A DNA stretch of 64,000 nucleotides, taken from Kutzneria sp. 744. GTDB taxonomy: Bacteria > Actinomycetota > Actinomycetes > Mycobacteriales > Pseudonocardiaceae. The notes under the pieces were generated by a model. The model saw nothing but the letters and a program-made list of their open reading frames with translations. It was not told the origin of the DNA and made no database searches. Shown in pieces: positions 1,581 through 47,009 of this stretch (position 1 is its first letter; the number at the start of each line of letters is the position of its first letter). A program made the position numbers and the translations under genes. The stretch is from contig NZ_KK037166.1 in the NCBI RefSeq assembly GCF_000568255.1, positions 4,454,171-4,518,170 of the forward strand, read 5' to 3'.

Positions 1581-3097
1581 GCCGTCCCCCTCGGGGCCAG
1601 CAGGTCCGCCGCGTCCTGGATGGGCAGGTCGGCGTCGAGGTGGGCGGCCAGCCGCAGCCAGTCGTGGCCGAGCTCGAGCGTGCGCTGCCATTCGGCGGCG
1701 GAGTCGAACGAGGACGGGAAGCCGGCCGCGCCGACGTACGCGCGCACCCGGGCAACGAGTCCGTCCAGCAAGCCGAGCGAGACCGGGGGCTGTTCCGCCC
1801 GCCGGGCCAGCGCCACCACCGAGCCGTCGACGAACGGCAACTCGGGCAGCAACCTGGTCAGCGCGTCGTCGGGCGGCAGCGGGTGGATCCCGGCGGCGCT
1901 GAACAGCCCGCGGCACACCACCTGCGCCATCCTTCGCGCAGCGAACTCGGCGACCTCGTCGCGGCCCGCAGCCAGCGCGCCGACGAGGTCCTCGCGGGCG
2001 TTCTCCGCAAGCACGTTCGACCACACCAGGTCCAGGCCGGCGGCGCAGAACCGGCCGGCCGGCAGCGGCACGAGCGTGACCGGGCCGATCGTCGTGCCGC
2101 CGAGCACCGACAGCGCCGGACAGGCCTGGCCGGGCGGCGGCGTGATCGGCCGGGTGGCCAGCCGGATGGCGTCTCCGTCGCGCCACGACAGCCCGACCAG
2201 GCCGAGGCGGACGAACAGCGCGAGCACACCGCGGTCGACGTCGCGGGCGGGCGGGCGGGCGAACACGATCGACCGCCACGCCCGGCCGGCGCGCTCGTCG
2301 AGCGCGAACACATCTGTGCCGTCGCGGATGACGTGCACGCGGTCGCCGATCGGCCAGGTGCCCACCCCAGGGATGCGGCGCAGCCGCACGCCGCCAGGCT
2401 CGGGCCGGCAGCCCGTGACGCCGAAGTCCTCGGCGAGGTCGAGGCAGTCCGCCATGCCGGTGACGCCCGCGCGGTAGCGGCGCACCAGGTCCTGAGGTGT
2501 GCCCGCCCGTGCCTCGATCCGATCGAGCTGAGCCGACAGCCACTTCGGTTCCACGTAGGTCTCGCCGCGGTGCGCCGCCCACGACTTCGCGCCGTACAGC
2601 AGGCTGTACCTCACCCAGTCGGCCGCCTCGTCGGGCTGCTCCAACTCCGCCATCGCCTGCGCGTACCGCAGCGCGTGGCGCGCGCGGTCAGCGAACCACA
2701 TCGACACCTGCGTGGCGAACACGTCGGCCGGCAGCAACGCCCTGGCGCGGTGCAGCAGGGCCTCGCCCCGCAGCGGCACGGCTCCGAGCAGCCGTTGGCA
2801 TCGGTCGAGGACATCCGCATCGGGCGCGACGAGCGCCGCGTCGAACTGCTCGGCCACCTGGCGCAGGGACCGCATGCGCACCTCGACCCGGCGGCCGCCG
2901 ACGAACAGCACGGTCGGCATCGTCGGCTGGTCCTCGCCGTCGACGAGCACGAGGAAGTCGACGTCCGAGGTGGGAGTGCCGAACCCCTCGGCGATCGAGC
3001 CCTCCAGCGCGACCGCGCTGCCTGCGGGCACGTCGACCTCCGCCAGGGCCAATGCCAGCAACTGGTCGACATCGACGTCCGTGAGTCCTGCCGTCAC
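1577..3097 (-). CDS. Nucleotidyltransferase-domain protein (aminoglycoside-NTase-like)
   Basis: 506 residues from a GTG overlapping the upstream stop as GTGA. Residues about 31-48 hold a DNA-polymerase-beta-type motif, LEGSIAEGFGTPTSDVDF, with the GS and the two metal-binding Asp (about 45 and 47); the third acid is probably the Glu in RRVEVRM. A helical segment rich in Ala and Trp follows (about 150-220), as in antibiotic nucleotidyltransferases of the KNTase type. The last 250 residues (LRRIPGVGTWPIGDRVHVIRDG onward, in pieces) are not recognised and look like a separate PqqD-like or winged region. Expected chemistry is NMP transfer from an NTP to a hydroxyl. Together with the PEP-kinase-like and NDK-like neighbours it suggests phosphorylation or nucleotidylation of a small molecule or peptide. 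Confidence 0.82.
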   Translation of the reverse strand: MTAGLTDVDVDQLLALALAEVDVPAGSAVALEGSIAEGFGTPTSDVDFLVLVDGEDQPTMPTVLFVGGRRVEVRMRSLRQVAEQFDAALVAPDADVLDRCQRLLGAVPLRGEALLHRARALLPADVFATQVSMWFADRARHALRYAQAMAELEQPDEAADWVRYSLLYGAKSWAAHRGETYVEPKWLSAQLDRIEARAGTPQDLVRRYRAGVTGMADCLDLAEDFGVTGCRPEPGGVRLRRIPGVGTWPIGDRVHVIRDGTDVFALDERAGRAWRSIVFARPPARDVDRGVLALFVRLGLVGLSWRDGDAIRLATRPITPPPGQACPALSVLGGTTIGPVTLVPLPAGRFCAAGLDLVWSNVLAENAREDLVGALAAGRDEVAEFAARRMAQVVCRGLFSAAGIHPLPPDDALTRLLPELPFVDGSVVALARRAEQPPVSLGLLDGLVARVRAYVGAAGFPSSFDSAAEWQRTLELGHDWLRLAAHLDADLPIQDAADLLAPRGTA

Positions 3098-5601
3098 GGC
3101 TCGAGCACCTCCACCAGCCCGGCGCCGCCGTCGACGCGCAGCCGTGCGCCGGCACGGACATTCGCGAGCAGGTCGCTGATCTGCACGACGGTCGGGATGC
3201 CGAGTTCGCGGGCGACGACGGCGACGTGCGTGAGCGGGCTGCCGCGTTCGACCAGCAGTGCGGAGGCAGCGGACAGGGCTGCGACCGAACCGGGATCGGT
3301 GTGATGGGCCAGCAGGATGCCGGCGCCGGCATGCACGGCCGTGCCCTCGACCACGCCGGGACTCGACGGCATGCCGCGCAGGATCCGTGACGGCGTTTCG
3401 GGCGTCGTGGTCCGCGTGCCCCATCCCGCGCGTTCGAGATTGCCGCGCCAGTACGGCACCCCGTGGGTCTCGAAGCGCATCGGTGCCGTGATGCCCTCGT
3501 CCCGGAGCCGCTGCTCGCGGCGCAGCCGCACGACCGGCTTGAGCTCGGTGTGCGCGATCGTCCCCTCGCAGCACCCACGGACCTCCTCCAACCGCAGCAG
3601 GAACACGTCGTGCCAATCGTCGAGTGCACCGAGCCTGGCCAGGTCCTTGCCGATGGCGCGCAGCATTCGCCGGGCAACGCCGAACGCTCGCGTCCGCCGC
3701 CAACGCAGCCGCTCCCGGTCTCTCATGCCGGCGGAGACCTTGCGCCGCACGACGTCGTAGACGATCCGGCGCGGTCCGGACAGGACCGTGTCGAGGTAGC
3801 CGTCAACATCACCGCGTGTGGCCTCCTCGGCCGCTGGCTCCTCCCGCAGCATTGCGAACAGCGCCGAGGGATCCTCGGTCAGGTCCGGCGTCTCCAGCTT
3901 CAGCTCGTCCACACCGCGGAATCCGAACCGCGCGATGTAGTCGTCGACCGCCGCGAGGAACTCCTGCCGCCCCTCGGCAGCCAGCCGCGCCTGCACCTGG
4001 CCGGCCGGCGTGTGTAGGACCAGCGTGACCAGCTCCGGATCCGCGTGCAGTTGGGCGGCCAGCCGGCGCAAGGCGGTCACCGGTTCGGCGGATTCCACCT
4101 CCGGCCCGGGCCCGGCGGCCGCCCAGAAGAACCAGTCGGGTGCGGCCGGCAACCACCGGCGGGTCAACAGGTGCAGCACACCGATCGACAGCAGCAGCGC
4201 GGCGTCCAGGACCATCATCGGGCCCCAGCGTTCGATGAGTTCCCGCTGTAGCAGCCGCAATCGGCGGTACACCCGGTCACACGACATGCCATCGTAGTCG
4301 GCGTGGGCGAATGCCGTTGCGGCGGCGTCGAATTCCCGACAGAACCGGCGCACCGAGCGCCCGATCGTCAGGAATCGCACGGCGAACGCGGCACCGGACA
4401 CCAACGGCACCAGCGGCGACGACCGCCGGTAGGGACGCAGGCCGTCGGCGATCTCGTCGTCGAGCGGCGCCACGCCGAGGGACACCTCGAGCACCTTGCG
4501 GTTGAGCCGATAGGCCGGCACAAGCCGAACCATCCGGTACCAGTGCAGCAGGTTGTAGTAGACGCGGCCGTGGAAGTACCCGAGCATGGCCGGCAGCCAG
4601 TCCGCCAACTGTCGGCGCACGCTGTGCGGCAGCAGCAACGCACGCGCGTACTCCTGATACACGTGCGCGTACACGTCCGCGGCGAAGCTGTAGGTCAGCG
4701 GTGAGGTGAGGCCGCTGAAGCTCTCGATGATGTTGGCGTTGTCCCAGATCCGCAATTCGCCGTCGAGCGGCGTAGTGATCGGGCGGCACTGCACCAGCCA
4801 CAGCCGGTCGCCCACGATCGCCCATTCCACGTCCTGCGGCGTGTCGAACGCGTCGCGGATGTCGCCCCCGATTCCCCACAGCGCGATGACTTCCTCGTCC
4901 GTCAGGCAGATGTCGCCGTCGCGCCGGGCGGCGCCGGTCGCCGCGTCGATGTGCACGGTGTCGGCCGGCGCGGTGGCCGACATGAGCGCGTCGCCAAGCC
5001 CGCGCGTCGCGCTGATCACATACTCGTGCCGGTTGCCGCTGACCGGTTCCGCGGTGAACAGCACGCCGCTCTTGTCGGCGTGCACCATCGCCTGCACGAT
5101 CACAGCCAGTCCGACAGAAGTCGGGGCGAGGCCGTGGCGCATGCGGTAGCGCAGCGCCCGTTCGGAGAAGGCGGATGCCCAGCATTCGCGCATCCGTGCG
5201 CACACGTCCTGGAACCCGGTGACGTTGAGGAAAGTGTCGAACTGTCCCGCGAAGGAGAGGACGGGGCCGTCCTCGTCCGGGCTGGACGATCGCACGGCGA
5301 AGGTGTCGCCGCCGGCGTCCCGGCAGGCGCGTGCGATGGCGTCGCGGGCGTCGTCCGTCAATTCCGCCGTGGTGACAAGGAAACGGATTCGATCCGCGAC
5401 CGCGCTGGCATTGTCGGAGGTGGTTTCGCGGAGCGCGGCGCCGATGGCGCCGGCGATGTGGCGGGCCGCGGCGAACCGCCGGAACACGTCCACGTCGACC
5501 ACGCCCCAGGCGGGTACGGCAAATCCTTTACGCTGCAACAATTCCAGGTTGACAGCCTTGGCCCCGTGATGTTCGCGGGCCGTGGTGTGCTGCGCGGGCA
5601 A
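3094..5601 (-). CDS. PEP-synthase/rifampin-phosphotransferase-like ATP-dependent dikinase
   Basis: I place the start at a TTG at 5601, because GGAGGA sits three bases before it and the first recognisable element, HHGAKAVNLELLQRKGF, follows at once. That gives 835 residues, close to Rph (about 865). An ATP-grasp pyruvate-phosphate-dikinase domain covers about residues 15-305 (FAVRSSSPDEDG, SFAGQFDTFL, QDVEWAI, QCRPIT). A poorly conserved middle domain follows, and a swivelling phosphohistidine domain closes the protein with GSPLTHVAVVARELGIPTVV, whose His is near residue 792. Family chemistry is ATP to AMP and Pi with phosphoryl transfer through His to pyruvate or to a drug. It heads the leftward cassette, divergent from the PucR-type gene. 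A resistance or tailoring kinase is as plausible as central metabolism, and the middle domain is unlike PpsA. Confidence 0.85.
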   Translation of the reverse strand: MPAQHTTAREHHGAKAVNLELLQRKGFAVPAWGVVDVDVFRRFAAARHIAGAIGAALRETTSDNASAVADRIRFLVTTAELTDDARDAIARACRDAGGDTFAVRSSSPDEDGPVLSFAGQFDTFLNVTGFQDVCARMRECWASAFSERALRYRMRHGLAPTSVGLAVIVQAMVHADKSGVLFTAEPVSGNRHEYVISATRGLGDALMSATAPADTVHIDAATGAARRDGDICLTDEEVIALWGIGGDIRDAFDTPQDVEWAIVGDRLWLVQCRPITTPLDGELRIWDNANIIESFSGLTSPLTYSFAADVYAHVYQEYARALLLPHSVRRQLADWLPAMLGYFHGRVYYNLLHWYRMVRLVPAYRLNRKVLEVSLGVAPLDDEIADGLRPYRRSSPLVPLVSGAAFAVRFLTIGRSVRRFCREFDAAATAFAHADYDGMSCDRVYRRLRLLQRELIERWGPMMVLDAALLLSIGVLHLLTRRWLPAAPDWFFWAAAGPGPEVESAEPVTALRRLAAQLHADPELVTLVLHTPAGQVQARLAAEGRQEFLAAVDDYIARFGFRGVDELKLETPDLTEDPSALFAMLREEPAAEEATRGDVDGYLDTVLSGPRRIVYDVVRRKVSAGMRDRERLRWRRTRAFGVARRMLRAIGKDLARLGALDDWHDVFLLRLEEVRGCCEGTIAHTELKPVVRLRREQRLRDEGITAPMRFETHGVPYWRGNLERAGWGTRTTTPETPSRILRGMPSSPGVVEGTAVHAGAGILLAHHTDPGSVAALSAASALLVERGSPLTHVAVVARELGIPTVVQISDLLANVRAGARLRVDGGAGLVEVLEP

Positions 5602-7636: not shown

Positions 7637-9619
7637 CTACGGGAACGGGTGCGGATGCGGGTTGACCTCTCCCGGCGGCAGCGGAGTGTCCCGGTAGCCG
7701 AGCGCGTGCGGGATCCGGTGCAGCCGGGGCAGACCGTGCACCCGCCGGAACTCGTGCCCGAAGGTCATCGGCAGGGTGCCGGGGATGATCACCTTGACGC
7801 AGCTGAACCCACCGACCCGGTGTTCCGGCGTCGTCTGATCCACGACGACGACGTCCAGCCCGGTGTCGAGGTAGCGCCCGACCAGGCCGATCAGGTCGCT
7901 GGTCAGGTCGAAGTTGTAGGCCGGCGGGCGGGCGCTGGCCATCTCCGCCAGCGTGCGCCGGCCCCTCGATGCGAACAGGAACTCGAAGCGGTCGAAGACC
8001 GCCGGGCTGGCGTACAGCAGCGAGTGGTCGGCCATCCGGTGGACCAGCGACGAGTCCTCGGCCATCCGCCGCGCCCGATCGGCGTTGTCGAGATAGGTCT
8101 GGTTGAGGCCGCTCATGACCGGCCCCAGCTCGAACAGGGCGTTGCGCAGCGCGTGTTCCGGATCCAGATGCGACCCGCCGGTGGACACCGTCCTGGCCAC
8201 ATCGCCACCACCCGGTGAGTTCACTGCCAGCAACCACACGCACGGGATCCGCTGCTCGACGGTGGTGTCGAAGGCGAGGATCCGCCACCCGGTCTCGTCC
8301 TCGATCCGCTGGCGCAGCAACGGTATCCGTCGGTCACGAGCCGAGTCCAGGTCGATGCGAGGCACCGCCAGCCGGGCGTACCAGGTCATCAGGAAGGCGT
8401 CGCGTTCGGCGACTTCCAGTATCCCGTGCAGGATGGCCTCCTCCAGGCAGCCGCCCAGCGCGCACCCGTTGGAGGTTTCGAACGCGATCCTCGGCTCGTG
8501 CGGCTTGGCCCGGTGGATGCCGTAGTACGCATAGCTCTCAGGCACCAGCACAGGGCGGCGGCGGGCGAAGGAATAGCCCCACACCCAGTCCAGTTCCAGA
8601 TCGTCACCGAACCGGACGAACGGGAACGACGGCCCGTAGCGCTCCGGCGGGTACAGCCCGAGCGAGCGCGGGTCGACGGCATCCTCGCGGACCTGCGGGT
8701 ACCGGGCGCGCACCGTGGTCCGCTTCCCTCCGGGCTGCATTCCGCCCCAGCGCTCGAGCGATTCGAGGACCGCGGTCAGTTCGCTGGTCTGGTAGCTGTC
8801 ACTGCGCCCCCAGCTCCATTCCACGCCGTTCCCGCCGCCGCGCAGGCCCATCGGCGCCACCGCGATCGCGACCCCTGCCTCGTCACCCATGTCCACTGTC
8901 CGGATGAGACCCGTCTCGGCGTCGACGTACGTTCGGATCAGCTCGTCCCGCTCGGCGGCGACCGACCGCAGCCGGTAGGCGTCCGGCGCCGGCTTCGGTC
9001 GCGGAGACAGGGTGATCTCGGCTCGCTCCGCCGTGTCGTCGGGCAGGGAGCCGCACGCCGGGCACAGCGGATCGGGCAGGAACTTGTGCGTGGTGACGGT
9101 GATGTCCGCCAAGTGCACGTGCAGCACCGCGTTGTCGGTGCGCGGTGGGACGGAGCCATCGACCAGCCGCCGCACCTCCTCGACCACCAGGGCGGCGACA
9201 GCATGGCAGCCGAGAGCGGTGAGCCAGGAGGACGGGCGGCTCACGAAGGCGTCGGCGTTGCGCCCCCACACCGCGTCGAGTTCCGCCCCTCGCTGTCGAG
9301 CCCTGTTGCTGCGCAGGCCGGCGCAGCTCGCGCAGCCCGCCACGCCGGGGCGCGTCACGGGCCCGATCACCGCGTGCCCGAGCCTGGTGAAGACGGGAAG
9401 CCACGGAATTCCCGCCACGGCACAGGCGGTCTGGGCGCCGGTGTGGGCCCGGGTGTCCCAGGCGTCGCTGGCCAGCACGAGTCCTCGGCACCGGTCGAGT
9501 CCGTCGGCAGGGTCCTCGACGGCGACCGGCACGAGCTCGGCATTGTCGGCCAGGAGTCTCCTGATCACGGTGTGCAGCGCCCCGGAACCGCTGAGACCGA
9601 TGCTCGCCCGAGGACTCAT
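7637..9619 (-). CDS. Fused E1-like/YcaO azoline cyclodehydratase (TbtG-type)
   Basis: 660 residues; ATG in an ATGA overlap with the ocin-ThiF gene. The first 200 residues are a degenerate E1/ThiF-like partner with two CxxC pairs (GCASCAG and LCPACGS) that would bind a structural zinc. The rest is a YcaO domain with the ATP-site acidic motifs TAVLESLERWGG and CLEEAILHGILEVAERD, and it ends in the proline-rich tail PHPHPFP typical of azoline-forming YcaO enzymes. It phosphorylates the backbone amide and cyclises Cys (and perhaps Ser) of the precursor to thiazolines or oxazolines. It needs the ocin-ThiF protein to bind the leader. Seventh gene in an order equal to tbtA-G. Family and role are secure; the residues modified are inferred. 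Confidence 0.95.
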   Translation of the reverse strand: MSPRASIGLSGSGALHTVIRRLLADNAELVPVAVEDPADGLDRCRGLVLASDAWDTRAHTGAQTACAVAGIPWLPVFTRLGHAVIGPVTRPGVAGCASCAGLRSNRARQRGAELDAVWGRNADAFVSRPSSWLTALGCHAVAALVVEEVRRLVDGSVPPRTDNAVLHVHLADITVTTHKFLPDPLCPACGSLPDDTAERAEITLSPRPKPAPDAYRLRSVAAERDELIRTYVDAETGLIRTVDMGDEAGVAIAVAPMGLRGGGNGVEWSWGRSDSYQTSELTAVLESLERWGGMQPGGKRTTVRARYPQVREDAVDPRSLGLYPPERYGPSFPFVRFGDDLELDWVWGYSFARRRPVLVPESYAYYGIHRAKPHEPRIAFETSNGCALGGCLEEAILHGILEVAERDAFLMTWYARLAVPRIDLDSARDRRIPLLRQRIEDETGWRILAFDTTVEQRIPCVWLLAVNSPGGGDVARTVSTGGSHLDPEHALRNALFELGPVMSGLNQTYLDNADRARRMAEDSSLVHRMADHSLLYASPAVFDRFEFLFASRGRRTLAEMASARPPAYNFDLTSDLIGLVGRYLDTGLDVVVVDQTTPEHRVGGFSCVKVIIPGTLPMTFGHEFRRVHGLPRLHRIPHALGYRDTPLPPGEVNPHPHPFP

Positions 9620-11652
9620 CGCAGCACCACCTGCACGGCGTAGGGCATGACCTCACTCATCTCGGGATCGTGGTCGAGTGGCACCGCAACCGGGATCCGG
9701 CCGCTGCTGCGCAGCGCCTCGACCATGATGCGCAGCTCGGTGTCCAGGCGTTGTCGGGCCGGCTCGTCACCGCGCAGCCGTGGCGGCAGCTGTGGCACCG
9801 GCGGCGGCGCGTAGGCGTTCTGGTCGTGCATGCGTGCCTGGCAGGCCAGCAGGACCTGTTCGAGGCCGTCGCGCAGCGCGTCGGTCACCCGGGCAGCGCT
9901 GGTGTAGCACACGCTCTCGGCGCCGAGGCAGAACGCGAACGTGGGCACACCGAGCGATCCGGTGGCGTCGTAGACCTTCACGGGTGCGTCGATCACCGCC
10001 AGCAGCCGACGGTAGCGCTGGCCGAGCTCGTCGAGGTCCGCGTACTGAGTGTCTACAACGGACAGTGGCTGCCGGCCGGCTCCTGCGAGTTCGGCGACGG
10101 TCAGGTCGAGGCAGCGCCCGGCGACGCCGGCGGTCACGGCCTCGGCCCAGTCGTACCCCGCGGTGGCCCCGGAGGACACAGCGGCGAGGGCCGACCGGGA
10201 ACGCAGCGCGGGAAACACGGTTTCGGCGGGCACATCGCACGGTTCGCCGTCGGTCAACCGCGATCCCCACACCCGGCCCGCCAAGGAGCCTTCGGTGAGG
10301 GCGACGAGGTCCTCGGCGGGATCGTCCCCACCGGTCGGCTCATCGGAGCCGACCGGGGCCAGCAGCCGACGTGGATCGACGAACAGCGACCCGTGGACGG
10401 CGAACGCGCGCAACGCCGCGCGGTGACGGGCGGCGGCGAAGTTCGGACCGGCGGTGATCACCGGGACCGGTGCGCGCCGCTCGCCGAGCAGACCGACCGG
10501 GTCCGCGACGGTCACCTCGGACACGTGCAGCGGAAGCTGGGCGAAGTCCCGCTCGCCGATCGCACGGAACGGCCCCAGACGGTCGTCGACGAGCTCGGCG
10601 GCTCGGCGCGAGAACGTCTCCTCGTCCAGCCGCTGCCCGCGGCTGAGCCGGCTGACGGTGTGACGGAACTCGCCGGCCGTCTGTGGCCGCGCCGGACCTG
10701 CGAACGGATGCCGCACCACCCGGTGGTACGTCGTGCGCAGGGTCCGCAGGTCGAACCGAGCCAGCTGGGGACGGCCCTCGTCGGTGGCGGTGAGGCCGAC
10801 CACCTCCCGGAACACGCGGTGGAACACATGGTCCGCCAGCACGGCGGCGGCGTCCGGCGTCGGCGACTCGGCGCTGTTCTCCCGCGCCGGCAGCGCAAGG
10901 CGCAACCGCGCGTCGTCCCAACCGACCTGTCCCGTCGACGGCAGCGACCCGATCCACGCTTCGGCGCCGGTCATGATCACCTGCACGAGCCGCGTGCCGC
11001 TCTGGTGGCAGATTCGTGTCAACAGCCGGGTCCTGGTGAGCGAGGCGCGGTCCGAGACATGCACGACCACGGCGGCTTCGGCGACCATTCGCTCGAATCG
11101 GTCCGGCTCGGGCTCGCCGACCAGCAGCCTGTCGACTCCCCGGCGGCGGGACCCTCCCAGCACGCCGGTGAGCTCGTCGAGGTCGGTCGCGCAGTCGTCC
11201 GTCGCCACCACCGTGACGTTGTCCATGCCCGACCGCGGCCCGGCGGCCGCGCATGCGACCAGGCTCCGACCGGCGCCGATCAACACCGTCGGGCAGTTGC
11301 GGTACTGGACGAACCGCACGACGGCAGTGTCGACGAAGTCGTCGATGAAATGCACCTCCGCCGCGTGCGGCGCGAGCACCTGGTCCGGAGGCAGGCCGCG
11401 CGCCGCGACGTCCTTGACAAGCCCGCGCTCGTGCAGGATGCGCACGACATCGCTGACGAAGGCGCCTCGGTCCACCGGCAGGTACGCGACGAGTTCGTCC
11501 AGGGACCGCTGCCCGTCGAGGAACGGGGCCAGCCGGTCGATCCACGCGGCGATGGTCTTGCCGGTCAGCGTGATCGGTCCCTTGTTGGTGAGCCAGTACA
11601 CCCCGTCGGGGACCGGCGCGAAGTACGCGTCCCGTGCGAGTTGGGGTTTCAT
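9616..11652 (-). CDS. Ocin-ThiF-like leader-binding cyclodehydratase partner (TbtF-type)
   Basis: 678 residues from an ATG that overlaps the upstream stop as TGATG, with GGCAGG before it. The N-terminal 100 residues (YWLTNKGPITLTGKTIAAWID, in part) resemble a PqqD-like RRE that grips the leader. A ThiF-like Rossmann region follows (TVLIGAGRSLVA near residue 125), lacking adenylation motifs as expected for this family. Its C-terminus overlaps the YcaO start by four bases. In thiomuracin biosynthesis the TbtF homologue presents the leader to the YcaO enzyme. Start, context and family agree well. Confidence 0.9.
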   Translation of the reverse strand: MKPQLARDAYFAPVPDGVYWLTNKGPITLTGKTIAAWIDRLAPFLDGQRSLDELVAYLPVDRGAFVSDVVRILHERGLVKDVAARGLPPDQVLAPHAAEVHFIDDFVDTAVVRFVQYRNCPTVLIGAGRSLVACAAAGPRSGMDNVTVVATDDCATDLDELTGVLGGSRRRGVDRLLVGEPEPDRFERMVAEAAVVVHVSDRASLTRTRLLTRICHQSGTRLVQVIMTGAEAWIGSLPSTGQVGWDDARLRLALPARENSAESPTPDAAAVLADHVFHRVFREVVGLTATDEGRPQLARFDLRTLRTTYHRVVRHPFAGPARPQTAGEFRHTVSRLSRGQRLDEETFSRRAAELVDDRLGPFRAIGERDFAQLPLHVSEVTVADPVGLLGERRAPVPVITAGPNFAAARHRAALRAFAVHGSLFVDPRRLLAPVGSDEPTGGDDPAEDLVALTEGSLAGRVWGSRLTDGEPCDVPAETVFPALRSRSALAAVSSGATAGYDWAEAVTAGVAGRCLDLTVAELAGAGRQPLSVVDTQYADLDELGQRYRRLLAVIDAPVKVYDATGSLGVPTFAFCLGAESVCYTSAARVTDALRDGLEQVLLACQARMHDQNAYAPPPVPQLPPRLRGDEPARQRLDTELRIMVEALRSSGRIPVAVPLDHDPEMSEVMPYAVQVVLR

Positions 11653-13043
11653 CAGGACCTGCCTTTCCGATCGGCGCCGGCGACGGTGGACGACGCCGGC
11701 CGCCTGCTGCCCAACGTGAACGCGCCGACACTCGCTTCGGTCATCGGGTCCAGGCCGGTCGCCTCGGCGAAGAAATCGTTGCCTCCCACCGCGATCGCGC
11801 AGGGAGCCAGCGCCATCGCGGTCGCGATGAGGTACATGTTCTGGTACAGCACACCGACGTGCTTGAGCATCAGGGCGTACCCCGTGCCCTCGTACTTCCA
11901 CATCAACCGACCGAAGCGGGCAGTGACCACGAGCAGCACCTGCGGCATGCCGGACCACTTCAGCAGCGCCCGCAGCGGGGCCGGATGCGCCGACCCAAGA
12001 GTGAGCCGGTGGGAGTGGGCGTCGTAGTGGTAAAGCCCGGTGTGCAGCCCGGTCACCGATCGCACCACGGGATAGATCTCGAGTTCGTGCAGGCCGCCAC
12101 CGGCCGGATAGGGCCGGTCGGAGACCTCCTGACCGCTGTACACGCCGACGCCGCGCACTCTCGCACAGCGAAAGAGGAACTCGCCGAGTTGGTCGAGCGT
12201 GAGCGGGTTGTCCTCGTCGCCTTCCCGCACCGAGCGGCGGTCCTCGATCACCGCCGTGAGCGTGGGGTCGGTCGCGCGCAGCCGGCCCAGGTCCGGTTTC
12301 GGCAGGGCGACGGTCGGCCCGTCGAAGGGCCTGTGCCGGCCGGGCAGCGGGTCGAATCGCCCCTTCGCCCAGTAGGTGCCGCCGGTACCGTCGATCTTGC
12401 TGCTGCGGTGGTGGAACCACAGTTCGTGCGCGCTCCACTGAGCCAGTCGCAGCTCGTCGGTCTCGGCGTCCGACTGGTCCGTGAGGAAGCCCTCACGCCA
12501 GAGGTCCACGACCAGCCGTCGGCCGACGTCCGCGGAGAGCTGGCCGGGGGCGTCGCCCCGGGACACCGGTGTCAACGACGCGGCCACGAATTCCAGCACT
12601 CGGGGATCGTGGACGTGCACGTCGCACGTGGCCACGGCCGACTCGACGAGCATCTCCGCGCCGTCGCGGCGCAGCACGGCGAAGCGGGACAGCATGACGC
12701 GGGCCGGCACCGCATCGTGCCCGGCGCCGTGACGCCGACGGCGTGGCCGCAATGTGTACAGCGGCAGGTTGTCGTTGCCCCAGACCGTGGTCGTGAGCCA
12801 ACCTCCTGACCGCAACCGTTCCAGCAGCCGCGTGGTGAGCCCGTCGCCCAGCAGGTCGTCCACGGTGCAGGCGTTCGCCAGCCGGCGCAGCGTCGTGAGC
12901 TGTTCCGCGGTCAGCCGTCCCAGCGACTCGCTGCGCGGGCGGGCGACGAGGAACACCTCGCCGCCTTCGCCCATGGCGCAGTGCACGCCGGGGAGCAGCC
13001 GCACGGTCTCGGACACCGCCATGTGAGGGGGATCGTCGATCAC
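11652..13043 (-). CDS. SagB-type FMN azoline dehydrogenase (TbtE-type)
   Basis: 463 residues from a GTG overlapping the previous stop as GTGA; an ATG seven codons in is possible but has no better ribosome site. The nitroreductase fold starts near residue 255 with EDRRSVREG, then RPYPAGGGLHELEIYPVV and KYEGTGYALMLKHVG, the FMN-binding and active-site blocks of SagB/McbC enzymes. The first 200 residues are the N-terminal extension typical of thiopeptide dehydrogenases. It oxidises azolines made by the YcaO enzyme to thiazoles or oxazoles. Confidence 0.93.
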   Translation of the reverse strand: MIDDPPHMAVSETVRLLPGVHCAMGEGGEVFLVARPRSESLGRLTAEQLTTLRRLANACTVDDLLGDGLTTRLLERLRSGGWLTTTVWGNDNLPLYTLRPRRRRHGAGHDAVPARVMLSRFAVLRRDGAEMLVESAVATCDVHVHDPRVLEFVAASLTPVSRGDAPGQLSADVGRRLVVDLWREGFLTDQSDAETDELRLAQWSAHELWFHHRSSKIDGTGGTYWAKGRFDPLPGRHRPFDGPTVALPKPDLGRLRATDPTLTAVIEDRRSVREGDEDNPLTLDQLGEFLFRCARVRGVGVYSGQEVSDRPYPAGGGLHELEIYPVVRSVTGLHTGLYHYDAHSHRLTLGSAHPAPLRALLKWSGMPQVLLVVTARFGRLMWKYEGTGYALMLKHVGVLYQNMYLIATAMALAPCAIAVGGNDFFAEATGLDPMTEASVGAFTLGSRRPASSTVAGADRKGRS

Positions 13044-14137
13044 GACGTACCACGCAGAACGAGCTCACGGGGGTCGGCCGGATCCCCCGGCGCCGGGAAG
13101 GCGACTTCGGCGGCGGGCCGCCCGAAGAGATCCTCCGCCGCGTTGGCCGCGAGATGACACAGCAGCAAGCGCTCGGCCGGCGACAGGCCGAGCCTCGTCA
13201 GGTGCAGGTAGGTGTAGTTGAGCATCAGTCGGTATTTGGCGAACCAGACCGGGTCCACCACCACGTCCTTGCGAGCCCGGTGCAGCGGACTGCGGCGCAG
13301 GCGCTCAGCGTACTCCGCGCTGTCCGGGCGTGGGCCAGGCGCCAACCTGAGCATGTGGGACTCGATGAGCTCCGACCCGCGTCGCCAGTACGGTGTCATC
13401 ACCTCCACCCACGGCCGGACGAACGGCAGACACGGCCCGGCGGCGTCGACGGTGGCGAGCACCGCCTGAACCCTGCCGGTCAGCGCGTCCATGTGCTGCT
13501 CGTAGTGCCGCTCCCAGGCGGGGCGCAGCCCCACGCCCTCGGGCATCCACGACAGGAAAGCCTCGGCGTGTGAACGGAACGACACGAACCCCCGCGCGAA
13601 TCCGACCCCGGACAGGGCGTGCGCGGTGGCCACCATCAGGTCGAAGCCCAGTCGCAGCAGTTGCCTGCCGCCGCGCACGGCCTCGGTCATGTCGAAGGCG
13701 AGCGGCGTGGTGTCGACGTAGAAGTCGGCGAGCAGGTCTGCCGCGGCGGCGGTGCCGAGCACGTGCAGCCGCTGATCGTAGTCCGCCTCGTGAATGGAGT
13801 TGTCCGGCCGCAGCGGCAGCAGTTCGCCACGCTCCTGTTCCAACTCGGCCAGTCGTGTGTGCTGGACGTGCAGCTGCTGCGGGTCGATGACCGCCGTGGA
13901 CGGTCGGCCGCGGAGATACCCGCCCACCACCTCACGCACCGTCGGAAGCACTAGCTCGTCGTGGACTTGTTGGTCGGCCTCGAAATTGAGCCGCAGATGC
14001 GGTCCCTTCAGCCAATGCGGCACGTAGTAGGTCCGTACGCCGGGGGCCAGCCCCCGCAACAGCGGCCGCACCGCGTCCAGAAGGAGGTCGGTCTTGTCGT
14101 CGTCGTAGTAGTAGACGTGCACGCTGCGCCACCGCAC
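13040..14137 (-). CDS. Thiopeptide-type LanB C-terminal protein, probable [4+2] pyridine synthase (TbtD-type)
   Basis: 365 residues from a GTG with AAGGAGAG eight bases upstream. It opens with WRSVHVYYYDDDKTDLLL and WLKGPHLRLNF, the signature of the thiopeptide-type bacteriocin biosynthesis domain (SpaB C-terminal family). There are two such genes in tandem. By position (fourth gene, after the shorter copy) and size it matches TbtD, which joins two dehydroalanines by formal aza-[4+2] cycloaddition and expels the leader to give a pyridine macrocycle. The assignment of this copy rather than its neighbour to pyridine formation rests on gene order, not on catalytic residues that I can verify. Confidence 0.85.
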   Translation of the reverse strand: MRWRSVHVYYYDDDKTDLLLDAVRPLLRGLAPGVRTYYVPHWLKGPHLRLNFEADQQVHDELVLPTVREVVGGYLRGRPSTAVIDPQQLHVQHTRLAELEQERGELLPLRPDNSIHEADYDQRLHVLGTAAAADLLADFYVDTTPLAFDMTEAVRGGRQLLRLGFDLMVATAHALSGVGFARGFVSFRSHAEAFLSWMPEGVGLRPAWERHYEQHMDALTGRVQAVLATVDAAGPCLPFVRPWVEVMTPYWRRGSELIESHMLRLAPGPRPDSAEYAERLRRSPLHRARKDVVVDPVWFAKYRLMLNYTYLHLTRLGLSPAERLLLCHLAANAAEDLFGRPAAEVAFPAPGDPADPRELVLRGTS

Positions 14138-14140
14138 GGC

Positions 14141-15121
14141 TCAGCTCTCCTTGGTCAGGTCGTGAACGGTCCGGCCGGCCAGGTACCGCAGCGCGCTTTC
14201 GCTGCCGATCGAGAGGCCGATCCGGTTGCACATCAGATGTGCGCATTGGTCGAGCACCCGCAGCACCGCGGCCTGGGTGTCGACGGCCGCAGCGCGGTTC
14301 GGCCGCCGCGACACGAACCTGCCGAGCGCGATCTCGTCCGTGACCACGTCCCGGGCCTGCGTCACCGACCGTGCCCACAGGGTGTTCGTGCCCTTGTGCG
14401 GCAACAGGTGCAGCACCGTGGTCGCGGCCCGCATCCGATCGGCGATCGCCTGCAGCCGCTCGCACTGCCGGCGGTAGCGCTCCTCCATCTCGCCCGCGGC
14501 GTGCTCGTCCCATCCCGGCAGCAGCGTCCGGGCACCCGCGGAGGACAGACCCAGATATGCCCGCAGCTCGGCCGCCGACGGCACGCACAGGAACCACGTC
14601 AGCAGGATCAGGCAGAACGCGAGCGTTGCTCGCTGATCGGGTGTCGGCCGCGCGGCCAGCATCTCCAGCGCGATCTGGCTAGACTCGCCGAAATGCCGTT
14701 CGATGGCCAGGATGGACTTCCCGTCGCCGAACCGGTGACCCTCCCGCACGTACGGGATGAACACCACTGAGTTGTTCGGGTACATGCGGGGCAATGGCGT
14801 CGTCGCCTCGAACTGCGCCATCTGCGCGGCGACGCGGGCGTACTCCTGCTCGTCGAGGCGGTCCGGCGCCGGGCGCCGTCGCAGGTACTCCTCGCAGCGT
14901 CGCTCGACGAGCTCCCGCACCTCGATGCCGGACCGGCCCCGCGCGGGGCGGACACGCAACCGGATGTGCGGACCGCCGTCCCAGTAGCGCAGGAAGAAGA
15001 ACTGTCTCGCCAGCCTCCGCCGCGTCAGTTCCTTGGTCAGCGGGGAGATCAGCTCCCCGACCAGAACGTCCAGATCTCCGTGGTAGAACACATGGGCGCT
15101 GACCCAGTCATGCCCGCTCAC
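14141..15121 (-). CDS. Thiopeptide-type LanB C-terminal protein, probable Glu-elimination enzyme (TbtC-type)
   Basis: 326 residues starting at a GTG that directly follows the TGA of the large LanB gene. The N-terminus WVSAHVFYHGDLDVLVGEL with RYWDGGPHIRLRVRP marks the same thiopeptide-type domain as the next gene. As the third gene after precursor and glutamylation enzyme it corresponds to TbtC, which removes glutamate from glutamylated Ser to leave dehydroalanine. Only three bases separate its stop from the next start, so the two are probably translated together. Confidence 0.86.
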   Translation of the reverse strand: MSGHDWVSAHVFYHGDLDVLVGELISPLTKELTRRRLARQFFFLRYWDGGPHIRLRVRPARGRSGIEVRELVERRCEEYLRRRPAPDRLDEQEYARVAAQMAQFEATTPLPRMYPNNSVVFIPYVREGHRFGDGKSILAIERHFGESSQIALEMLAARPTPDQRATLAFCLILLTWFLCVPSAAELRAYLGLSSAGARTLLPGWDEHAAGEMEERYRRQCERLQAIADRMRAATTVLHLLPHKGTNTLWARSVTQARDVVTDEIALGRFVSRRPNRAAAVDTQAAVLRVLDQCAHLMCNRIGLSIGSESALRYLAGRTVHDLTKES

Positions 15122-17818
15122 TCACACCTCACTCGCGGACAACTCAATGATGAACTCCGTCACGCGCGGGTCGGCGGGATCGAGCCCGCACCCGCCTTCG
15201 GGTGGCGGCAACGCCTCCTCGAAGATCACCAGCCCGCTGCGGTCCTTCAGCATGTGCTCGAAGGCCGCGCCGAGGAAGAAGTTCGCGAAGTCCACGAACA
15301 TCGGCTTGCGTGCCTTGGAGAAGAACTGCTTGCGCCACTCCGAGTCGGGATCCATGACGCGCACATAGCAGCGTTGCGGGATGCCGGACGCGCGCAGCCA
15401 GCCGACCATGCGGACCAGGTAGCCCGCGTCGTCCTCGCCGGCGGCCCGGGCCGGCACCTCGGCAAGGGGGACGAACCAGCGGGCCCGCTGGAGGGTGACC
15501 CGGCCGATCTCGACCCTGGGGAGATGGCGGGGTCTGACGCCCGCCCTGTCGTCACCGAGCGGATATACGGTCGCGAAGGCGGAGTGCACCAGGTGCGACG
15601 GTCCGAACGCCGACAACAGCAGGCGGGCGGCCGGGGGCAGCAGCGTGTCCCCGAGCATGCCCAGGTGGGCCGGCAGCACGTGGACGCCGAGCCGGTCGGA
15701 GCGCAGCCGGAGCAGGTCGGCCTCGGCGTCGTGCACCACAGTGAGGTCGGACAACGGGATCCGTTCGCCGGCCGGCCGGCCGCTCGTGGTGAACGGGTAG
15801 TCGATCTCATAGGGGGCGAGCGGCGCGCGCAGGTTGACCGAGTAGTCGAAGACGCCGGACATCTCGACGACCACCGGATCCATGCCCCGCATCCGCGACG
15901 GCGCAGGGACTTGCTGTGCTGGGGCAGGCTGCGCCGCGCCCGCCTGGGCGGCCAGCCGCAGCCATCGACTGCGGCCACGCCCGAAGCCGCCGCCCACCAT
16001 GTTGACCGCGAGCCTCAGGTCGTCGCCGGTCAGGTACGGCTGCACGTAGCAGGCGACCGAGCCCGGCGCGCCTACCCACGACGGCCAACTGTCGACGAGC
16101 CTCGCCAGACCGTCCGGCGCGACCCGGGCCACGCCCGTGTCGTCCGTCGCCGACAGGATGAAGTCGAGGGACCGCACCCGAAGCCGGTACAGTTCCGCGA
16201 TGCGAGGCACCCCGGACCGTTCCAGGTACGAGGGCGGTGGCGGTGTGCTGAGCTGGATGAGCGGACGCACCGCGACCAGCCACGGCTCGCACTCGTCGTC
16301 CGGACGGCGGAGATCTTCCTGGATCGCCTGGTGCAGAACGAGGAACGGCACCCTGGCGCCCGGGCCGAACCGCCGGCCGACGTAGCTGGCCATGGACAGC
16401 CGGGTCGGCAGCAGCCAGTCGTGCAACGCTAACCAGCGCCGCACGACATCCAGGTCGTCCAACGCCGGCCGCCACCGTGGCAGGGCACACTCCAGCCGAG
16501 CGTGCGGGAACATCGACGTCTCGTGGGCCACGGCCTTGCGCATCCGCTCGATCGTCGTTGACGGCAGGTCGAGGCGAGCCGCGAGCGCGCTCACCTGCTC
16601 CGGGAGCACGTCCCGTGTGGTCGGGGAGGCGTCCAAGGCGAACGGGCGGCCCAACTCGGCCCGCAACTGGTCGATCAGGTCGATCACCTCCGGGCCGGCG
16701 GTGTCGCCGGCACCCGTCGACCGCAGCCAAGCGAGCAGTTCCGCCAATGGCCGCTCGGACTGGTCGAGGACCGGGAGCCGGCGTTCGAGCAGACCGATCT
16801 CCACCAGCAGGTCGAGGAACGGGCGCAGTTGAGCCAGGTCGGCACCGGTCCGCGCGGCCAGCAGCGCACACAGCTCGGCCACCGTCCGGTGGTCGCCCTC
16901 GTGCCGTGCGACCCGCAGGCACTCGGCGAGCGCAGGCGACATCGGCACCCTGATGATCGACTCGTCCGGGCGGGGCCCGATGAAGCTCACGGAGTCCTCG
17001 GCGACGAGCGCGCTCGGGTTGAGGCGGACGGGCAGGCCGGCCCCGAGGGCAGGCCGGCCGACCAACTCGCGGACCAGTCGTCCCAGCACCCCGCGGTCGA
17101 GTTCGAGCACCCCTTGCACCGCCAGGTCCCCGGTGAATCCGACCGCGGGCCCCTGATCGGTCCAGCCGCCGAGCACGCTCGTGGTGAACGTGCTGTAGGG
17201 ACTGGTCTTGGCCGCCGCCCTGGACAGGTATCGCGCCACCCCCACGAGGGTGCGTCGCCGCAGCCTGCGTCCGTCGTCGGCGAGCCACTTGTGCATCTCC
17301 GCGAACAACGCCGGGCTGGCCCTGCGCAACCCGTTCTGGAACAGCGGGTGCGCGCAGGCGCGGCGCAGCGGCTCCTCCTTGCGCTCGACCTCGTCGGCAA
17401 GCGCTTGCGGCAGCCGCGCGCGGCACCGGTCCCGATCCCGCAGCAGGGCCAACCAGCGCTCGACGTCCACGGCGAGGTCGGTCGGCAGCGCCGCAGCGAC
17501 CTGCTCGTTCCACTCGCCCTTGCGCGGCGCCCGCACCTGATGGATCGCCCGGCGCAACGCCACGACCCGCGGCTTGACGGGGGACTCCGACAGGTTCCCG
17601 ATGGCGTCGAACAGCGCCTGCTCGAGCGCCTCGGCCGCAACGGCCAGCCCTCGGTCGATGTCGATGATCTTGTCAAGCAGGTCCCATGACTCCTCCAGGC
17701 GCAGTTCCCGGAGCACCGAGGCCGGCAGTCCCGTGACACGGGCGACAAGCGGAGTCTCCAGCCGGTACCCCCTCAGCGCCTGGACCCTTCCGTTCAGCGG
17801 ACCCGCGGCCAGCACCAC
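15122..17818 (-). CDS. Split LanB: tRNA-Glu-dependent Ser/Thr glutamylation enzyme (TbtB-type)
   Basis: 898 residues from a GTG with GGAGG about nine bases upstream. It is a lantibiotic dehydratase N-terminal domain: ARYLSRAAAKTSPYSTFTT near residue 190 is the strongly conserved block, and RIPLSDLTVVHD and a C-terminal region ending FIIELSASEV follow. The C-terminal elimination domain of full LanBs is missing and is supplied by the separate downstream gene, the arrangement seen in thiopeptide systems. It esterifies core Ser with Glu from Glu-tRNA. It sits 114 bp after the precursor gene, behind a strong hairpin that may lower its expression relative to the precursor. Confidence 0.94.
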   Translation of the reverse strand: MVLAAGPLNGRVQALRGYRLETPLVARVTGLPASVLRELRLEESWDLLDKIIDIDRGLAVAAEALEQALFDAIGNLSESPVKPRVVALRRAIHQVRAPRKGEWNEQVAAALPTDLAVDVERWLALLRDRDRCRARLPQALADEVERKEEPLRRACAHPLFQNGLRRASPALFAEMHKWLADDGRRLRRRTLVGVARYLSRAAAKTSPYSTFTTSVLGGWTDQGPAVGFTGDLAVQGVLELDRGVLGRLVRELVGRPALGAGLPVRLNPSALVAEDSVSFIGPRPDESIIRVPMSPALAECLRVARHEGDHRTVAELCALLAARTGADLAQLRPFLDLLVEIGLLERRLPVLDQSERPLAELLAWLRSTGAGDTAGPEVIDLIDQLRAELGRPFALDASPTTRDVLPEQVSALAARLDLPSTTIERMRKAVAHETSMFPHARLECALPRWRPALDDLDVVRRWLALHDWLLPTRLSMASYVGRRFGPGARVPFLVLHQAIQEDLRRPDDECEPWLVAVRPLIQLSTPPPPSYLERSGVPRIAELYRLRVRSLDFILSATDDTGVARVAPDGLARLVDSWPSWVGAPGSVACYVQPYLTGDDLRLAVNMVGGGFGRGRSRWLRLAAQAGAAQPAPAQQVPAPSRMRGMDPVVVEMSGVFDYSVNLRAPLAPYEIDYPFTTSGRPAGERIPLSDLTVVHDAEADLLRLRSDRLGVHVLPAHLGMLGDTLLPPAARLLLSAFGPSHLVHSAFATVYPLGDDRAGVRPRHLPRVEIGRVTLQRARWFVPLAEVPARAAGEDDAGYLVRMVGWLRASGIPQRCYVRVMDPDSEWRKQFFSKARKPMFVDFANFFLGAAFEHMLKDRSGLVIFEEALPPPEGGCGLDPADPRVTEFIIELSASEV

Positions 17819-17862
17819 GGCTGTGTTCCTCCATCTCCTGATGACACTGATATCCGGGGGAG

Positions 17863-17902
17863 CCGCGGGGCCGACGACGCGCCATGGCCGTCGACCCCGC
17901 GG
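17863..17902 (-). terminator. Intercistronic hairpin after the precursor gene (attenuator)
   Basis: On the minus strand CCGCGGGG pairs with CCCCGCGG, and the stem continues with mostly paired bases to about 15 bp around a small loop. It lies between the precursor and LanB genes. Such partial terminators raise precursor over enzyme levels in many RiPP operons. A full terminator is less likely because no other promoter region is evident before the LanB gene. Confidence 0.6.
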
Positions 17903-17931
17903 GTCTAGTGAGCGGTCTTAGCGACTAGTCG

Positions 17932-18171
17932 TCACCAGTGGCCGTGGCCGCCGTGGCCACCGCCCCAGCCGCCGTCCCAGCCGCCGTCCCCGCAGCTGCA
18001 GCTACCGCCACCGCAGCTGCAGCTACCCGAGCAGTGCGACGAGCTGGACGCTTCGTTCTCGGCCATACCGTGACCGGCCGTCAGCGACTCGACGGTCAGG
18101 CCACGGTCCGTCAGCTTGAAGACATCCATCGACAGGTCACCGAGGGCGTACTGAACCTTTTCCGTTACCAT
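17932..18171 (-). CDS. Thiopeptide-like RiPP precursor with unusual Gly/Trp/His tail
   Basis: 79 codons; GGGAGGAG lies about ten bases before the ATG. The leader segment DLSMDVFKLTDRGL then TVESLTAGHGMAENEA is closely similar to the thiomuracin precursor TbtA leader (MDVFELADSG, VESLTAGHGMTE), which fixes the family. By that alignment the core starts at the Ser run after AENEA. The core has four Ser, then HCSGSCSCG, then GGSCSCG (two GSCSCG units), giving nine Ser and five Cys, and ends with a tail GDGGWDGGW, GGGHGGHGHW that has no counterpart in known thiopeptides I recall. The Cys are candidates for thiazoles and two Ser for the pyridine. The tail may be kept, trimmed or act as a recognition element. 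The gene heads the operon of modifying enzymes. Confidence 0.93.
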   Translation of the reverse strand: MVTEKVQYALGDLSMDVFKLTDRGLTVESLTAGHGMAENEASSSSHCSGSCSCGGGSCSCGDGGWDGGWGGGHGGHGHW

Positions 18172-18719
18172 TGAGAATCACTCCTCCCTTTCCCGGTTTC
18201 AACTGAACAATCCATCAACGTCCACCCAGAACAGGTCCACCAACAATTAAAGGCACCCTATCGGGCACACCTCTCGTCCGACAACACCGCAAATCGGCTG
18301 TCGCCCCAACCATCCATCCCAAGCTAATGAACGGCGACACGACGCCGATCGGGGAATGCGAGGCGGTCAAGACAAGGGCGTAACACCTTTCGTTTGACCA
18401 CTGAGCGAACGAGTTCGACTGTAACGAAAAAGATCACGGCCAGAGAGAGGCCAACTGGCTGGCCCCTGGGCGTGGGCCGCCACCGCCCAACGCGCCTGGT
18501 CGCCACCGCGTTACGCCTGCCCGGCCGGACGCGAACCCGTGGTCACGGACGTGACCGCCACGGTGCGTGGGCCGCGCGGCCACGGTGCCGCACCTCGTGT
18601 CGACCCCGACACGAGGAGGCTCCGCAGGGCCAAGCGCTTGGCCTCTTGTTGACCAAGGAACCGCCACAGACAATCCATGGACATCTCGTGCAGCATCGAC
18701 AGCAAAGGACCGAAGTGCC
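18172..18719. promoter_or_regulatory. Divergent promoter region between precursor and HxlR-type gene
   Basis: This 548-bp gap must carry the promoter of the thiopeptide operon (leftward) and of the HxlR gene (rightward). The left half is AT-richer than its surroundings. I do not see confident -10/-35 boxes. The right part holds three consecutive palindromes, listed separately. Confidence 0.5.
18541..18616. promoter_or_regulatory. Three consecutive inverted repeats upstream of HxlR gene
   Basis: GGTCAC-N4-GTGACC (18541-18556), the 12-bp palindrome GGCCGCGCGGCC (18570-18581) and CCTCGTGTCG-N4-CGACACGAGG (18593-18616) follow each other within 76 bp. They could be operators for the regulator or leader-RNA hairpins. 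Confidence 0.45.
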
Positions 18720-19100
18720 GTGAAATCGACCAACACCACCGAGTCACACTGGGACTCGGAGTGGCAGGACGACGCGACGGTTCCGGTCCTGGCGGCACAT
18801 CTCGCGAATTGGAGCGAAGTCGCCGCGGTAATCGCAACCGTCGCGCACAGGTCGGCGCTGCCGGTCCTGGTGGGGCTGGGCCACGGCCCAATGCGCTACA
18901 GCGAGTTGTCACGCGCGCTGCGCATAGACAACAAACAGCTGAGCAGGGTTCTCCGTCGCCTGAGGGAAGCGCACATCGTGGCCAGGGACGTGAACGGGGC
19001 CCGGGGGTCGGTCCAGGTGCGGTACCACCTGACCCCGTCCGGGCAGAACCTGGTGGCGATCCTCGCCGAGCTCGGCTCCTGGCACCTGACTCGTGGATGA
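18720..19100 (+). CDS. HxlR-family winged-helix regulator
   Basis: 126 residues from a GTG with AAAGGA about ten bases upstream. The middle (HGPMRYSELSRALRIDNKQL then SRVLRRLREAHIV) is an HxlR/MarR-like winged helix, with the wing VQVRYHLTPSGQNL typical of HxlR, where a Tyr-x-Leu-Thr precedes the C-terminal dimer helix. The canonical N-terminal Cys of redox-sensing HxlR proteins is absent here. It is divergent from the thiopeptide precursor gene, so it is a good candidate for operon control, though it may also serve the broken reductase gene next to it. Confidence 0.85.
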   Translation: MKSTNTTESHWDSEWQDDATVPVLAAHLANWSEVAAVIATVAHRSALPVLVGLGHGPMRYSELSRALRIDNKQLSRVLRRLREAHIVARDVNGARGSVQVRYHLTPSGQNLVAILAELGSWHLTRG

Positions 19101-47006: not shown

Positions 47007-47009
47007 CCG

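Follow-up and report, generated by a model that had tools for sequence, protein, structure and literature searches.

Among the closest described systems to the one considered here are those in which azoles, dehydroalanine (Dha) residues or both are installed in a precursor peptide before a [4+2] closure that releases the leader as an amide, as set out for lactazole (PMC7210931) and the pyritides (PMC9247985). The structural peptides of known thiopeptides have 12-17 residues in a 2014 review (PMC3917276). Here we describe a thiopeptide-type operon in the genome of the soil bacterium Kutzneria sp. 744, within a stretch of 64 kb (the window, to whose coordinates positions refer unless a locus is named) of a single contig of 11.65 Mb. 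Its precursor joins a leader of the thiomuracin type to a core of 38 residues, in which two copies of a putative diene unit are followed by a Gly/Trp/His-rich tail, and we believe, with moderate confidence, that the product would be a 29-membered pyridine macrocycle with a retained tail of 26 residues.

Like the lactazole (laz) cluster, the Kutzneria locus is compact and holds only macrocyclisation genes, and the lactazole enzymes tolerate both tail extensions and large rings (PMC7210931); unlike lactazole, it has a long tail by nature, a SagB protein and an elimination protein encoded apart where lactazole has the LazF fusion, and another leader and core. The likeness to the pyritides (mro) would lie in the [4+2] pyridine closure, the tolerance of large rings and the part that C-terminal residues play in recognition (PMC9247985), whereas azole-forming enzymes are missing from the pyritide cluster and Cys from its precursors, in contrast to the YcaO and SagB proteins and the five core Cys found here. 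With the thiomuracin, GE2270 and GE37468 systems (tbt, pbt, get) the locus shares the leader type, the gene set, the synthase family and the Ser1...Cys10-Ser11-Cys12 register; it departs from the thiomuracin and GE2270 types in its 38-residue core (16 residues in the look-alike cores of genomes G086 and G245), its duplicated diene unit, its Gly/Trp/His tail, its Ser in place of Cys at positions 2, 4 and 9, and its Ser in place of the Asn tied to EF-Tu. From the letters of their cores we take G245 to be GE2270-like and G086 to be thiomuracin-like.

A complete operon with an extended core

Enzyme families were assigned by NCBIfam and Pfam profile scans, together with relatives of solved structure. 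Positions 7637-18171 hold, on the minus strand, a complete, collinear thiopeptide operon, in which the precursor gene is followed on the same strand by six enzyme genes in the order B-C-D-E-F-G (Table 1). The names tbtA to tbtG are borrowed from the thiomuracin cluster, whose gene order, like that of the GE2270 and GE37468 clusters, is the one found here. The parts of a thiopeptide system of the TbtD/PbtD type are found here: a [4+2] pyridine synthase, a split LanB dehydratase pair, YcaO and SagB proteins above their cut-offs, a ThiF-like protein that falls below the full-length TIGR03693 cut-off of 561.9 (scanned as 9616-11655), a thiopeptide leader, and a core that begins with Ser and carries an azole-Ser-azole diene motif downstream. 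The tbtB-like LanB protein matched Pfam only, the NCBIfam scan giving no match, and its structural relative 6ec7 is presumably TbtB (the entry title reads lantibiotic dehydratase domain protein). The tbtC-like protein also reaches 99.2 bits against the synthase model NF045556, below the cut-off of 325, and its role in glutamate elimination is a putative assignment by family and position. Among solved structures, the relatives of the pyridine synthase are TbtD (5wa3, E=1.8e-71) and PbtD (5w98, E=2.2e-65). The Tyr of its NxTYL motif (Tyr310) is conserved in 25 of the 26 pyridine synthases aligned, the partial rows L091 and L092 being excluded; PbtD entry 8ejz has Phe at this site, and PbtD 5w98 and the Kutzneria protein have Tyr. 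The YcaO protein ends in PHPHPFP.

The open reading frame at the head of the operon encodes 79 residues, MVTEKVQYALGDLSMDVFKLTDRGLTVESLTAGHGMAENEASSSSHCSGSCSCGGGSCSCGDGGWDGGWGGGHGGHGHW. It lies far over the cut-off of NF033399.2, the model for thiomuracin/GE37468 thiazolyl peptides, and below that of the Pfam thiopeptide model PF19409 (13.8 bits, cut-off 23.5); because of the NF033399.2 score and the related leaders in four further Kutzneria genomes, we do not regard it as a chance reading frame. The core, SSSSHCSGSCSCGGGSCSCGDGGWDGGWGGGHGGHGHW, follows directly on the leader end GHGMAENEA. It opens, behind the Ala, with four Ser, contains five Cys in all and two GSCSCG units with a single Gly between them, and ends in 19 residues of Gly, Trp, His and Asp beyond the last Cys. 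Its DNA contains tandem repeats of 21, 15, 12 and 9 bp, every length a multiple of three. An earlier note on this DNA had described the tbtABCDEFG order and enzyme set, a leader close to that of thiomuracin, the four Ser, the paired GSCSCG units and the 19-residue tail, and a core unlike those of known thiopeptides; the profile scans and the reading frame bear these statements out, and 38 residues lie well beyond the range given in the review. That note had also allowed for the tail being a frameshift of an ordinary core, an origin that we reject: the frame is open here and in three close orthologues, and the differences between the tails consist of repeat copies that preserve the frame.

Table 1. 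Features of the operon and its precursor, in window coordinates
Feature	Position	Strand	Evidence or remark
tbtG-like YcaO cyclodehydratase	7637..9619	-	TIGR03604 343.5 bits, cut-off 219.25; TIGR03882 144.8, cut-off 36.9
tbtF-like ocin-ThiF leader-binding protein	9616..11652	-	TIGR03693 121.1 bits, E=4.2e-35
tbtE-like SagB-family azoline dehydrogenase	11652..13043	-	TIGR03605 152.1 bits, cut-off 78.4
tbtD-like [4+2] pyridine synthase	13040..14137	-	NF045556.1 477.6 bits, cut-off 325
tbtC-like putative glutamate elimination enzyme	14141..15121	-	TIGR03891 83.8 bits, cut-off 48.45; PF14028
tbtB-like Ser glutamylation enzyme (LanB N-terminal part)	15122..17818	-	PF04738 134.4 bits; 6ec7 E=2.7e-125
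Hairpin, 16-pair stem, in tbtA-tbtB spacer	17863..17902	-	-46.6 kcal/mol over the 113-nt spacer
tbtA-like precursor gene, 79 aa, stop included	17932..18171	-	NF033399.2 63.8 bits, cut-off 29
Core residues 20-38, Gly/Trp/His/Asp tail, 19 residues	17935..17991	-	12-bp and 9-bp tandem repeats
Core residues 13-19, GGGSCSC, second diene copy (Ser18)	17992..18012	-	21-bp tandem repeat
Core residues 1-12, SSSSHCSGSCSC, predicted macrocycle segment with first Cys-Ser-Cys diene (Ser11)	18013..18048	-	
Leader, residues 1-41 (to ...GHGMAENEA)	18049..18171	-	boundary from GHGMPEVGA|SCNC... of G086, G245
Ribosome-binding-site-like GGGAGGAG before tbtA ATG	18181..18188	-	GGAG kept in three close relatives
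HxlR-type regulator, upstream of tbtA, divergent	18720..19100	+	relatives beside cluster in G003, CA-103260

Conservation within Kutzneria

The precursor is present in five of the seven Kutzneria genomes, namely our own, K. buriramensis (G001), G003, CA-103260 (G004) and K. viridogrisea (G006); neither precursor nor synthase was found in G002 or in G005, a 4.7-Mb assembly in 210 contigs. A search of contigs by exact peptide patterns, which is best suited to near relatives, gave 12 loci, of which L019, matched only in part and at 24%, was attributed to chance. When the seven genomes were searched with a DNA pattern for Gly-Ser-Cys-Ser-Cys-Gly, the pattern proved far too loose, giving hundreds of matches and fewer than its reversed control. 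The five cores have 38 (own), 41, 42, 43 and 44 residues. From the leader through the second diene unit the precursors of our strain, K. buriramensis, CA-103260 and G003 are nearly invariant, core residues 1-12 being the same in all four, and their C-terminal ends differ: our strain and K. buriramensis have two diene units, CA-103260 and G003 three, with the tail after them. Over leader and first ring (47 codons), 46 residues are identical to ours in each of three species, with 1, 2 and 4 changes at 27 fourfold sites, and the six enzymes of the three close species are 85-90% identical to ours with 13-20% fourfold changes. From this comparison we conclude that leader and ring are under strong selection at the protein level and that the tail is free to vary in length. 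K. viridogrisea stands further off: its enzymes are 48-63% identical to ours, and its core starts SDSSGFCSGFCGGSSSSSSSCSC and continues in Gly/Cys/Phe/Ser repeats that end in His, with no Trp/His tail. A maximum-likelihood tree of 26 synthases places the five Kutzneria rows in a single clade (100/99). With the root at the midpoint, the half of the tree to which this clade belongs is weakly supported (81/77) and includes the rows whose cores are GE2270-like or thiomuracin-like.

The predicted macrocycle and its alternatives

Counted from the first Ser, Cys10-Ser11-Cys12 of our core coincides with that of the GE2270-like core SCNCVCGLCCSC... (G245), and all six azole positions of a GE2270-type core hold Ser or Cys within residues 1-12. 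Of 200,000 shuffles of the first 20 residues with Ser1 fixed, 2.7% had Cys-Ser-Cys at positions 10-12 and 0.3% showed the full pattern, frequencies that are a guide and not a test, since the pattern was picked after inspection. By the rule 3k-4, closure at Ser11 would give a ring of 29 atoms, at Ser18 one of 50, at the third copies 68 or 65, and at Ser22 62.

In the pathway we propose, the ThiF-like protein would bind the leader, YcaO and SagB would convert Cys, and probably also Ser2, Ser4 and Ser9, to thiazoles and oxazoles, and the TbtB/TbtC-like enzymes would turn the remaining Ser into Dha. The TbtD-like synthase would then join Dha1 to Dha11, held between the thiazoles of Cys10 and Cys12, in a pyridine, closing a 29-membered ring and expelling the leader. 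The product would keep the C-terminal ~26 residues, that is, a second, unused azole-Dha-azole unit and the Gly/Trp/His-rich end. Every chemical step, the choice of the ring-closing Ser and the retention of the tail are predictions from the sequence. As leader release would be built into the synthase, no dedicated leader protease should be needed, and a scan of 11 neighbours of the cluster in the window recognised no protease family. In vitro, the lactazole enzymes process substrates whose tail has been lengthened by as many as 15 residues, to 18 in all, close rings that reach 62 atoms and bring about their own leader release (PMC7210931), and the pyritide enzymes make 68-membered rings (PMC9247985). 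By analogy, these results make the Kutzneria core a plausible natural substrate, although they fall short of proof.

Overall, the 29-membered macrocycle with its retained 26-residue tail seems to us the best reading, one to which we would give somewhat better than even chances, and several observations weigh against it. Both Cys-Ser-Cys units stand in an identical GSCSCG context, so that sequence alone cannot tell which Ser reacts, and the invariant stretch extends to core residue 20, past the first ring. K. viridogrisea has no Cys-Ser-Cys at positions 10-12, its first lying at Ser22, and position 2, a Ser in our core, is Cys in G245, G086, G089 and G221. The predicted tail of 26 residues exceeds the longest that the lactazole enzymes were tested with, and the tail of this putative product may prove labile to cellular proteases.

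The main rival is the same pathway with the ring closed at a later diene copy, at Ser18 or at the last copy in each species, which would give 50- to 68-membered rings with a tail of near-constant length. We keep it in that place because the two copies have the same neighbours, because 19, 22, 19 and 18 residues follow the last Cys-Ser-Cys in the four close species despite their two or three copies, and because K. viridogrisea has its first Cys-Ser-Cys, and G221 its single one, at Ser22, which would imply a 62-membered ring. Rings of 62 and 68 members are within reach of the lactazole and pyritide enzymes in vitro, yet the efficiency of lactazole closure dropped as the ring grew, the natural thiopeptide rings in the 2014 review have 26, 29 or 35 members (PMC3917276), and the first unit sits exactly in the GE2270 register; we therefore regard later closure as unlikely, if a serious contender. 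A bolder and rather improbable proposal would have the Kutzneria precursors evolve by tandem copying of a whole diene cassette (Gly-Gly-Ser-Cys-Ser-Cys), so that a single enzyme set could form natural rings with 29, 50 or 65-68 atoms, or with 62 in K. viridogrisea. In the four close species each ring would carry a Trp/His-Gly tail of nearly constant length, acting as a domain of its own that perhaps binds metal, and the result would be a modular macrocycle-plus-effector peptide with no parallel among the thiopeptides of the literature examined. Alternatively, the tail could be a removable follower that guides or protects the substrate and is then cut off, leaving a thiopeptide of ordinary size. 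The first ring is constant while the tail varies, the pyritide enzymes recognise a C-terminal tripeptide along with the leader (PMC9247985), and in some thiopeptides one or two residues are removed from the C-terminus (PMC3917276). A recognition element should be conserved, however, and the tail is the least conserved part; moreover, the scanned neighbours include no protease family and genes A-G alone are shared at the cluster by all five species, and we hold a follower to be quite improbable.

The remaining rivals dispense with the ring or with the meaning of the tail. Ser-Cys azole motifs also occur in microcin B17, which is not known to involve Dha or pyridine chemistry. The Gly-Ser-Cys repeats of our core do resemble linear azole peptides, and microcin B17 likewise has a Gly-rich cyclised core, the length of whose Gly linker varies among its precursors (PMC4603692). 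One might thus imagine a linear azole/Dha peptide, goadsporin- or microcin-like, with a pyridine synthase inactive on this core. But the goadsporin and coryneazolisin clusters are without a pyridine synthase (PMC4603692), whereas here each of the five species has it as an open reading frame and the five proteins are monophyletic, which leaves a linear product very improbable. The earlier note had felt the repeats to recall microcin B17 more than thiopeptides, and offered as products a pyridine macrocycle with a long metal-binding tail or a hybrid linear azole/thiopeptide; we prefer a long-tailed macrocycle because the canonical pyridine synthase is present. The microcin likeness appears superficial: leader and enzymes are of the thiopeptide type, and the GSCSCG units make more sense as repeats of the azole-Dha-azole diene that a pyridine synthase uses, given the GE2270 register and the Dha-forming and [4+2] enzymes. 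On the same grounds we reject the microcin B17-like linear hybrid, a comparison made by enzyme content and register, with McbA outside the alignment. Finally, the thiopeptide might be functional and its tail no more than the selectively neutral outcome of slippage in G+C-rich repeats. The 21-, 12- and 9-bp tandem repeats of the core DNA, whose copy numbers vary among species, are what slippage would leave, but the frame is kept, the choice of residues in the four close species is narrow (Gly, Trp, His and Asp, with Ser/Cys in the added diene units), and a long core (43 residues) recurs in the more distant K. viridogrisea, so that this explanation strikes us as scarcely credible.

Should the tailed macrocycle favoured here be made, long C-terminal extensions of the kind engineered in vitro with lactazole and pyritide enzymes, and perhaps large rings as well, would already be in use in nature. 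Its natural variants, which differ in tail and carry Cys-Ser-Cys in two or three copies, would then be a direct test of how a pyridine synthase selects the second Ser and of what share of the core escapes its control.

Activity and novelty

In the 2014 review, the 29-membered thiopeptides that bind EF-Tu share a ring Asn, and Ala, Cys, His or Ser in its place abolishes antibacterial activity (PMC3917276). Our core has a diene Ser at position 11, as that class does, with the second unit at Ser18 in addition; the Asn site (position 3, aligned with SCNC cores) is Ser3 in our strain and the three close species. Nor does EF-Tu carry a sign of self-resistance: each of the seven Kutzneria genomes has one tuf over the cut-off and no second one, and none of the 27 variable columns among 397 in the EF-Tu alignment separates the five carriers from the two non-carriers. 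With the Asn replaced and no signal of the carriers in EF-Tu, an EF-Tu mode of action is unlikely, although a genus resistant by ancestry would present the same picture. The lost Asn suggests a job for the peptide other than the EF-Tu block of its 29-membered relatives. Metal binding by the Gly/Trp/His tail would be a guess; the sole hint of metal among the neighbours is the HxlR-type gene, which scores 28 bits against an ArsR/SmtB model with a cut-off of 55.

Was this family already characterised, with a described product, as the earlier note had allowed? None was found in the literature searched. The titles and opening lines of abstracts of the papers found on Kutzneria, thiopeptide precursors and saalfelduracin contain no description of this core; supplements lay outside the search, and a listing in a published table may well exist. 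The comparative genome paper on Kutzneria (PMC10232511) has neither 'LAP' nor 'thiazol' in its main text and is not among the papers holding 'thiopeptide', and the main text of the survey of thiazole/oxazole-modified microcins (PMC4603692) does not mention Kutzneria.

Core lengths outside Kutzneria

How unusual the long cores are can be judged from two surveys, one with the GetA model (390 family and 394 class genomes) and one with the pyridine synthase model (390 and 396); both are samples above the family level, only the best places became loci, and the precursors seen are those that the model detects. The GetA model gave 44 loci, five in Kutzneria with cores of 38-44 residues and 39 elsewhere. 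With the boundary read by a purpose-written pattern, a core could be read in 37 of the 39, and 36 of these have 11-31 residues. The one exception to the pattern of shorter cores outside Kutzneria, with 54 residues, exceeds the Kutzneria cores themselves: L056 (1489-1755, in G198) is a weak GetA match under the cut-off (E=3.5e-4), with 54 residues past a leader-like GVTEIGA and two Cys. G198 is a fragmented genome, absent from the set in which a synthase was matched, and the frame of L056 is possibly broken or unrelated. Eighteen family genomes outside Kutzneria pass the synthase cut-off, and a precursor was read in 17 of them (15, and 2 on a looser look), with cores of 14-31 residues. One of the 17 (L085) is doubtful, G071 gave none, and rows in L014, L020, L078, L085 and L087 that were plainly not precursors were dropped by eye, with no preset rule.

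Several of these loci deserve mention in their own right. Four in one genus of the same family (L073, L076, L081 and L087, genus g8) have high-scoring synthases beside precursors with cores rich in Asp/Glu and Cys, such as SCDCGGECDCDCDCTGSCEAIA, and make up a further set of unusual thiopeptide cores. The core of L086 (G221), SCSAPGGGCSGCSGTTWDCCCSCGTD, has its sole Cys-Ser-Cys at Ser22, matching the first of K. viridogrisea and implying a 62-membered ring. In L091 (G220, C1 ~9084483-9086049), from the genus to which G221 belongs, the TbtD-like match lies in separate pieces, and the gene looks broken.

Genomic surroundings

Genes A-G are the only block beside the cluster common to all five species compared. 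Neighbouring genes were taken from a home-made gene finder, so that small ones may be missed; no tailoring, export or resistance gene was recognised among the 11 window neighbours scanned, and none stands beside the cluster in all five species. The HxlR-type regulator had no match in the K. buriramensis loci searched, and its link to the cluster is uncertain. The genes at 612-5502, downstream of tbtG (SDR, nucleotidyltransferase-like and phosphoenolpyruvate (PEP)-synthase-like) had no match in the loci of the relatives searched. In K. viridogrisea, the cluster (L010) is flanked by homologues of window genes 51559-53238 and 53962-54621, a pair found ~33-36 kb from the cluster in our genome, and the other neighbours of the K. 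viridogrisea cluster match window genes at 49-63 kb (49439-62644) and not those beside our cluster: the same region, at a different place. In K. buriramensis (L025 11527-15085), two ABC transporter genes follow directly downstream of tbtG; none was seen at that place in our strain, G003, CA-103260 or K. viridogrisea.

The hairpin in the tbtA-tbtB spacer is possibly a partial terminator that would keep the precursor in excess; with z -1.57, and 17 of 200 shuffles folding as well, the fold of the spacer is unexceptional for such G+C-rich DNA.

CA-103260 encodes a second thiopeptide-type precursor, with the leader MDVFQLADRGLTVESLTA and a core ending ...GSVLCALCVTCAPGQCGFCGL (L006 1495-1725, that is G004 C1 2865785-2865958; L022 15780-15974). 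A tblastn search with tbtB-G at 1e-8 gave no match in L022 and L023, which cover ~16 kb before and 20 kb after it, and this precursor might be processed in trans by the main cluster. Further along our own window, the genes at 44281-47489 resemble, on visual inspection, those of a type II polyketide synthase, with two ketosynthase-like proteins, a carrier and a cyclase-like protein.

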